A program made the translations under genes and the position numbers. The notes under the pieces were generated by a model. That model did no database searches. It worked only from the letters and a program-made list of their open reading frames with translations, and was not told the DNA's origin. A stretch of DNA of 23,241 bases from positions 562,678 to 585,918 of the forward strand of contig WELB01000061.1 in NCBI GenBank assembly GCA_009602725.1, given 5' to 3'. The DNA is from Spirogloea muscicola (lineage: Eukaryota > Streptophyta > Zygnematophyceae > Spirogloeales > Spirogloeaceae). Positions 2,760-22,169 of this stretch are shown here, in pieces (the first letter of the stretch is position 1; each line of letters starts with the position of its first letter).

Positions 2760-10232
<7,473 letters not shown>

Positions 10233-15683: not shown

Positions 15684-15938
15684 AGTGAAAGTATGTTCGC
15701 GTTGTGGTGGAATGAAAAACGAAGAGTGCATTATGTGAAAACTCCACTAGGAGAAGGAGGCTATGGCCCAGTCACATGGGAGTACCGAGCGCAGAGACGC
15801 TCGTGTGAAAGAGCACGAGCGTAGCTGTGGACCTACGGTAGGGAGTCGGTTTGGTCCTTGGTTATGTGCCAGCAGGAGGGGCCGCGGTGCAGCAGACCAG
15901 TCGGTTGGCTTGCGGGAGTCCACGAGACTGCCACTCAC

Positions 15939-16105
15939 CCGACCGCGGCGCAGAAGCAGTAGGAGCCATAGGTGCTGAGCACCTGGTTTTCAAGGCCCTG
16001 CACGGAGGTGGCGCCGCCGATGTAGGTGGAGCCGGCGGGGGAGCAGGTGACCAAGGCGGACGCCGCGAAGGCCAGGACCAGGACGGCGACGGCGAGGCTG
16101 GCCAT
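15939..16105 (-). pseudogene. orphan first exon of a PstS-like secreted protein
   Basis: ATG at 16105-16103 opens a signal peptide (MASLAVAVLVLAFAASALVT) followed by IGGATSVQGLENQVLS. It ends AAVG at a GG|GTGAGT donor in phase 2. The intact gene at 20906 has the same arrangement: MARFLVAAAVLALAASVSAA, GGGTSMAAVENQVLS, ending GSVG at GG|GTACGT, also phase 2. Length (55 versus 53 codons) and intron position match, so the two are paralogues. I could not find the expected second exon (GSGSG, SDA, RSDSSGT landmarks) in the next 2 kb on the - strand. It is therefore called a partial or decayed copy, but a distant or highly diverged exon 2 remains possible. Confidence 0.65.
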
Positions 16106-18455: not shown

Positions 18456-18560
18456 TTCTTGTTTTTCTTAGTGCTTCCCCTGGCCCCTTCTCGTCCTTTT
18501 GTTCATACTTTTTTGGGGTGGCCTTTCCCAGCCCCTATCCTCAATGGGCGAGCCCTTCAT
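18456..18560 (+). repeat. inverted repeat, left arm (partner 20062-20160)
   Basis: About 100 nt match the reverse complement of 20062-20160 at roughly nine in ten positions, with a few one-base gaps. Shared blocks include CTTGTTTTTCTTAG, GCTTCCCCTGGCCCC and CTCAATGGGCGAGC. It includes a GGTGGCCTTTCCCAGCC version of the dispersed hairpin motif. Confidence 0.8.
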
Positions 18561-19987: not shown

Positions 19988-20061
19988 AAGGGGACGGTAG
20001 GCAGAGCATGAGGCTCGCAGCAGCAGCGTAGACTCGGCCGCACTTGGGCCACTCAGGAAAA

Positions 20062-20160
20062 GTGCTCGCCCATTGAGAATAGGGGCTGGAAAAGCCATCC
20101 CAAAAAAGAATCAACAAAGGACGAGAAGGGGGCCAGGGGAAGCGCTAAGAAAAACAAGCA
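20062..20160 (-). repeat. inverted repeat, right arm (partner 18456-18560)
   Basis: The reverse complement follows 18456-18560 closely from CTTGTTTTTCTTAG to CTCAATGGGCGAGC. The two arms enclose about 1.5 kb in which I find no transposase or other gene. Confidence 0.8.
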
Positions 20161-20905: not shown

Positions 20906-22169
20906 ATGGCTCGCTTCCTCGTGGCCGCCGCGGTCCTCGCCCTCGCTGCCTCCGTCTCAGCCGCCTGCTCGGCCATCGTCTTTGGGGGCGGCACTTCCAT
21001 GGCGGCGGTGGAGAACCAAGTCCTGAGCTCATCCACCACCCCCTTCGGCTGCTACGGCTCGGTCGGGTACGTCAGATGCCACAGCACCCCACCTGAGGAG
21101 TTACGAGCTTTGTGGCAATTGGTAGCGTGGAGCCTCCAAATCCACGCACTGACCATCAATGTCCTGCTAGCACTACGATGCATGCACTGGCCAGCATCTA
21201 CTGCGCCAGGAAGCGCCGGATGCTGCTTGACATTTACACAGCACGCTGTGCAAATTTTTTGCTTCTGGCAGCTCCGGGAGTGGTTACAATCACTTCAAGG
21301 CTAAGGACTACCGGGTTGCTGCCTCCGATGCTGCTATGACGGCAGCGCAGGAGAGTAGCCTTGGCTTCAGCAAGTTGACCGTGCCTCAGGGCCTGCAGTC
21401 CTACTCGATGCTATACAACGGTGCCACGCAGCTGGCATTGACTTGCCAGAGCCTGGCCGACCTCTACTCCGGCTTCTCCACCACCATAGGAGGTGGTGCC
21501 CTCACCGTCCCAGTCGCTCGCTCCGACTCTTCTGGAACTTCCTATGTGTTCTCGTCCTACCTCAACCTTTGCACGGCTGGCGGTACCCGCCCGTGGCCGT
21601 CCACCAAGGTTGGCGAGGTTGTGGCCTGGGGCTCACCCAGGCTGGTGACGGCTACCGCGTCCCTGGGCGTTGCCTCCTATGTTCTCTCTCACCCCGCTGC
21701 CATCTGCTATGTGGGGACTTCTATTGCCACAACTTTTGTATCTGGCAATGTTCGCATTGCGGCGACCAACAACAAGGCCGGTCAGAACTACAGGGGTGAT
21801 TCCTGCTCTATCCTTGGCGCGAATCCCCTCACACTGCCCAGCGCCAGTGCCACGTGGTCTGCTGTCAAGACCATCTTCGCGCCTGGCTCTGGTGTTTGCC
21901 CAATGGTTGCCTTCATACACCTCTGGGTGCCCACCGTGACCTGTCCTGCTCCGGGTCCCGCTCCACCTGCACCACCTCCTCCCTGCAGTGCAGTACCTCC
22001 ACCACCACCTCCACCTCCCCCCCCTTTTTGCACTGCTGCTCAAGTCAAAGGCTTTCTTACTTATGTTTTCTCGAGTTCAGGCCAGACCCTTCTCGCGCCT
22101 CTTGGTTTTGTAGCTTGCCCCAGCGGTCTCCTTAATCAGGATAGGAACGCCGTTGCTACTATAATGTAG
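20906..22169 (+). CDS. secreted PstS-like phosphate-binding protein with Pro-rich insert, 2 exons
   Basis: Exons 20906-21066 and 21272-22169 join in phase 2 (GG|GTACGT, CAG|C) to give 352 aa. Residues 1-20 are a signal peptide (MARFLVAAAVLALAASVSAA). The rest follows the PstS-type periplasmic binding fold in order: GGGTS (27-31), GSGSGYNHFKAKDYRVAASDA (54-74; read as GSGSG then SDA), a LADLYSGF block, ARSDSSGTSYVFSSYL (136-151), AAICYVGTS, CPMVAFIHLWV, FLTYVFSSSGQTLLAPLGF (315-333). The Thr/Ser, Ser, Asp and Arg-Asp-Ser-Gly-Thr positions that hold phosphate in bacterial PstS are all represented, so ligand binding is plausible. No transporter subunits are nearby. The protein should be exported to the wall or periplasmic space. 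Residues 278-307 are a proline-rich block inside the fold. A paralogous first exon lies at 15939-16105. Confidence 0.85.
21942..22031 (+). other. proline-rich, cysteine-flanked insertion in the PstS-like protein
   Basis: Residues 278-307 run from a Cys through PAPGPAPPAPPPP, a second Cys, a run of ten prolines, to a third Cys. The block sits between the strand-like CPMVAFIHLWVPTVT and the helix-like AAQVKGFLTYVFSSSGQ, which are adjacent in bacterial PstS. It may be a hydroxyproline-rich, wall-anchoring loop; that role is inference. Confidence 0.8.

Follow-up and report, generated by a model that had tools for sequence, protein, structure and literature searches.

In green algae, the hydroxyproline-rich glycoproteins of the wall (pherophorins and extensin-like proteins) carry PAPGPAPPAPPPP-type stretches and runs of ten consecutive prolines (Pro10), and such proline stretches form a long rod or an inter-domain linker. 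Phosphate-binding proteins of the PstS type are described from bacteria and cyanophages (E. coli, 1ixh/2abh; cyanophage P-SSM2, 7xg8), and PMC10846223 lists eight residues that contact phosphate. DING proteins, PstS-like phosphate binders with a DINGGG start, have been reported from eukaryotes with their genes missing, and in PMC7922408 the role of PstS-type proteins in eukaryotes is left open for lack of genes. Here we describe a two-exon nuclear gene of the alga Spirogloea muscicola, located in a window of 23,241 nucleotides (the whole stretch of DNA analysed), that probably encodes a secreted phosphate-binding protein of the PstS type and carries a Cys/Pro-rich block inside the fold.

A Cys/Pro-rich loop inside a PstS-type fold

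The block consists of 30 in-frame codons (CPAPGPAPPAPPPPCSAVPPPPPPPPPPFC), with one cysteine at each end, one mid-block and a Pro10 run beginning at 21996. The initial annotation had reported a 30-residue Cys/Pro block with ten consecutive prolines at this position, and the description stands. The run lies beyond chance: no Pro10 arose in 20,000 shuffles of the window protein, and no Pro10 tract in 200 base-shuffled versions of the window. The gene (hereafter the window gene) is organized as follows, with lengths in nucleotides (nt).

20906..21066, + strand: exon 1, likely signal peptide (MARFLVAAAVLALAASVSAA) and first segment with a GGGTS motif, in the spliced frame
21067..21271, + strand: GT-AG intron of 205 nt, donor GG/GTACGT, acceptor TTCTGGCAG/C, frame preserved
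21272..22169, + strand: exon 2, encoding the PstS-type phosphate-binding domain and ending in TAG
21942..22031, + strand: Cys/Pro-rich loop insertion, residues 278-307, with Pro10 at 21996-22025
22116..22118, + strand: codon of Cys336 (FVACP), the cysteine that co-occurs with loop Cys307

The spliced frame of 352 amino acids is open throughout, and its N-terminus was judged by eye, without a predictor, to be a likely signal peptide. Counterparts of exon 1 were seen in many paralogues, and a tblastn search with exon 1 of the paralogue L017 matched 20906..21066. An intron of about 181-245 nt was read at the same place in 12 of 16 paralogues; among the other four, three were unreadable at the intron and one (L023) yielded the wrong motif.

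A structural model of exon 2, based on an alignment of 55 of 80 bacterial loci and 12 of 21 algal frames, places the block between a strand (212-220) and a helix (255-265, exon-2 numbering). The model aligns to PstS chains over residues 1 to 298, with M. tuberculosis PstS-1 as the top-row match. This alignment runs across the block, which argues against a position at a domain end and bears out the proposal of a PstS-fold protein with the block inside its fold. The flanks had been taken for neighbouring segments of PstS, and the alignment to the 55 bacterial sequences together with the model agrees: the 5' flank VCPMVAFIHLW corresponds to SYPIVTYTWIL and similar bacterial stretches, and the 3' flank is VKGFLTYVFSSSGQTLLAPLGF. 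The block itself is the part of the model with the lowest confidence, at a predicted local distance difference test (pLDDT) score of about 60-72.

From exon-2 position 217, before the strand tryptophan, to the residue preceding Lys259 of the helix, the window gene has 42 residues, compared with 17-24 in 11 other algal rows and 15 or 16 in the 55 bacterial PstS, where this stretch contains no adjacent proline pair and two cysteines in total. Counted on the alignment, the site falls at approximately residues 262-271 of E. coli PstS. The initial annotation had set the block within the ligand-binding core, and this was not borne out: the site lies between the strand and the C-terminal helices, where bacteria have a short turn. 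What has been lengthened here is a loop inside the fold, away from the phosphate contacts, and the ligand core is not broken by it; the turn that carries it presumably lies at the protein surface. As far as the literature searched shows, a proline-rich elongation of this PstS turn is a new variant.

Exon 2 of the window gene covers six of the eight phosphate contacts and keeps them all; the other two, T10 and F11, fall in exon 1, where the alignment (GGGTSM against GAGATFP) is uncertain. The Pfam family PF12849 (PBP_like_2) scored 32.3 bits at the window gene, over its gathering cut-off of 27 bits, and 18.2 bits, under that cut-off, with a shorter query. The equivalog TIGR00975, which represents PstS of PstSCAB, reached 72.4 bits with exon 2 only, below its cut-off of 205, and identity to the 55 bacterial rows was 22-29%. 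Fold and phosphate site look intact.

The proline codons of the block are mixed (CCT 8, CCA 6, CCC 4, CCG 1), and a pure triplet repeat was rejected as its origin on that account. In a genome sample of 44 sequences and 162,453 bases, in which L001 duplicates the window, three further tracts of the Pro10 type occurred (L015, L016 and L017), all of them CCG repeats outside exon-2 frames.

We also considered whether the block is an intron, part of an intron or an artefact of the gene model, and hence missing from the mature protein. Its flanks hold no good splice sites, and in the range scanned (GT at 21881-21945, AG at 22021-22100) the frame-keeping donors were all poor (GTGTTT, GTTTGC, GTTGCC, GTGCCC, GTGACC and GTCCTG). 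One frame-keeping GT-AG pair, 21943-22044, could excise the block nearly alone, dropping it with a few residues, but this candidate intron of 102 nt is shorter than the family introns that were read, and all other frame-keeping pairs cut deep into the strand or the helices. The tract is pyrimidine-rich, like an intron end, and a second PstS-like family of the alga seems to have an intron at the block site; against this, the window-gene frame is open throughout, and short Cys/Pro loops are encoded in frame at the same place in the paralogues L002, L022 and L024. The block as an intron was rejected as the leading explanation on the splice-pair scan, with its poor donors and short length, and we regard it as very improbable; the splicing objection is weak, yet alive.

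The gene family and its Cys/Pro subgroup

The PstS-like family is represented by at least 103 matched stretches, several per gene, in the genome of 153 Mb and 471 contigs. We compared 21 intact exon-2 frames that passed a filter, the window gene among them; L001, being the window gene itself, was dropped as a separate row, the filter removed L005, which is apparently intact and has a plain loop, while L010, L013, L016 and others were excluded as broken, and fragments on C139, C95, C23, C99, C77, C238 and other contigs lay outside the comparison. A plain loop of 14-16 residues without cysteine is present in 17 of the 21 frames. The remaining four have Cys/Pro loops, of 39 residues in the window gene, 21 in L002 and 19 each in L022 and L024, and the long version is confined to the window gene. 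Among broken copies, L013, L027 and L035 carry a Cys/Pro loop, with the C-terminal cysteine kept in L027 and L035 and L013 unreadable there. Within L001-L040, pairs are often head-to-head (contigs C96, C20, C365 and C30) or tandem (C14), and many copies are broken.

Cys307 of the loop and Cys336 are both present in all four Cys/Pro copies and both absent from all 17 plain copies (Fisher p 0.0002, for related copies and not 21 independent events), a pattern that fits a disulphide staple of the loop, in line with the suggestion of the initial annotation that cysteines could pin the block. Two further pairings likewise fit disulphides: Cys112 and Cys154 occur together in 19 copies and are both missing in L021 and L023, and Cys232 and Cys263 occur in all 21.

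In codon trees computed with the loop removed, a well-supported branch separates the four Cys/Pro copies from the rest, and synonymous distances agree with this grouping. The protein tree does not recover the group, though an approximately unbiased (AU) test did not reject a single group of the four (p 0.30). The likeliest history is a single origin of the short Cys/Pro loop, which the window gene alone later elongated. Another PstS-like family with several exons (L124 and L125, contigs C3 and C56) has an apparent intron at the Pro-block site, with a clear acceptor and an unclear donor, and because of this our guess is that the block originated as an exonised intron end.

No relatives of the algal profile were confirmed in bacterial genomes or viral contigs, in scans seeded by short conserved peptides that can miss remote relatives; tblastn of plasmids and phages returned PstS matches at about 30% identity. 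A description of such an algal PstS-like family was not found in the literature searched, which covered few subscription papers.

Phosphate contacts are missing from several intact paralogues: in L021, L022, L023 and L024, D56 is replaced by Val or Thr and S139 by Ala, with T141 changed to Ala in two of them, and L025 lacks R135 and D137. The ligand of these copies may be different. Such losses, together with the many broken copies in the family and the second family copy in the window, an orphan exon 1, could suggest that the window gene is itself decaying and that its block reflects relaxed constraint. The intact 352-residue frame and splice sites, the retention of all six testable contacts and a ratio of nonsynonymous to synonymous substitution rates (Ka/Ks) of 0.10-0.33 to the 20 paralogues compared argue otherwise, and we consider decay improbable.

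15938..16105, - strand: orphan exon 1, second family copy, found by tblastn with 79% identity to L017 exon 1

This copy and the window gene are arranged head-to-head, at a distance of about 4.8 kb. No above-noise tblastn match to an exon 2 for it was obtained elsewhere in the window, and the family search listed no further match on contig C61. An inverted repeat of approximately 100 nt, 90% identical (18458-18557 and 20060-20158), is situated between the two head-to-head copies. Elsewhere in the window, a fragment at 5155-5478 (- strand), with a Pkinase match under the cut-off, resembles the beginning of a receptor-like kinase domain of plant type, and an AG dinucleotide repeat of 53 copies spans 7039-7144.

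Function of the protein and of its loop

Searches for PstC and PstA gave no match in the genome, although they proceeded exon by exon and a finely split gene could escape them; each of the same searches matched all 14 control genomes, with 12 and 13 of them over the cut-off. The genome does contain matches to PHO4-type transporters, and in combination these results make a free phosphate binder, secreted by the cell, the likeliest role of the window protein. The family thus looks like a set of orphan secreted binding proteins that operate without any Pst permease.

The explanation that we favour for the anatomy and history of the block, and hold to be moderately probable, is that the window gene encodes a PstS-type binder, one of a large nuclear family acting without a Pst permease, in which the short Cys/Pro loop of one paralogue subgroup has been lengthened at a length-tolerant site. 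The loop would be exposed and project into the cell-wall space, its prolines probably hydroxylated and glycosylated like those of other proline-rich algal wall proteins, its end probably stapled by a Cys307-Cys336 disulphide, so that the protein would leave the wall more slowly. This last step, retention in the wall, is plausible but tentative, with the balance leaning against it; as the function preferred for the block, it draws on what is commonly known of algal wall proteins and on candidate oxygenase domains in the genome. The initial annotation had likewise proposed a tether to a hydroxyproline-rich cell wall. The Cys/Pro loop is not the means of holding the whole family, since 17 of the 21 intact copies lack it. 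A broader scheme, in which the family forms a wall-resident phosphate trap of transporter-free receptors, with one branch locked to the hydroxyproline-rich wall by a disulphide-stapled proline loop and other branches losing contacts and perhaps binding other ligands, appears unlikely.

As an account of the block by itself, neutral elongation is roughly on a par with wall retention, and equally tentative. It shares its anatomy with the favoured explanation and differs on function, so that the odds of the two are not exclusive: proline codons would have spread by slippage and drift at a length-tolerant site, leaving a functionless block. The occurrence of the long form in one of 21 intact copies is in keeping with this, as are the long branch of the window gene (0.32) and the nature of the site, a short turn in bacteria and an apparent intron site in the second algal family. 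The mixed proline codons, with no pure repeat, count against it, as does the Cys/Pro character, which recurs in three other intact copies and three broken ones and goes together with a second cysteine elsewhere in the protein.

Several observations weigh against the favoured explanation. The exon-2 model omits exon 1 and depends on the 55 bacterial PstS, and a model built without bacterial rows, on 17 of the 21 intact algal frames, was poor, with a pLDDT of 32.2. Being confined to a single gene, the long block gives no sign of conservation, and the protein tree does not group the four Cys/Pro copies (3 changes; their grouping appears in 2% of 200 bootstrap trees). The subgroup gains three cysteines, an odd count, and its members L022 and L024 lack D56 and S139. 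The exon-by-exon permease searches could have overlooked a finely split gene, and secretion, expression, hydroxylation, glycosylation and disulphides are all predictions.

Comparison with known systems

The window protein shares with bacterial and cyanophage PstS the fold over the whole of exon 2 and all six testable phosphate contacts. In contrast to these proteins, it is encoded by a nuclear, intron-bearing gene, has extra cysteines and bears a Cys/Pro block at the turn, and its genome has no PstC or PstA match, unlike the bacterial systems.

DING proteins gave a lower structural match to the window protein than PstS did. Membership in that group was rejected, as DINGGG is absent from the 352 residues and the mature start lies at about ACSAIVFGGGTS (cleavage site by eye). 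In contrast to DING proteins, the window-gene family has real nuclear genes, and an expanded, intron-bearing family of this kind offers real genes with which to ask about PstS-type roles in a eukaryote. We judge this orphan expanded family to be more interesting than the proline-rich loop.

PF12499 gave no match, in a search whose positive control was silent as well. Like the hydroxyproline-rich wall glycoproteins, the window protein is probably secreted and contains PAPGPAPPAPPPP and Pro10. If its loop is a wall anchor, it would represent a way to fix a free binding protein in the wall without a separate anchor domain. Whereas the proline stretches of those glycoproteins are rods or linkers, that of the window protein takes the form of a loop of 30 residues within the fold of a binding protein.
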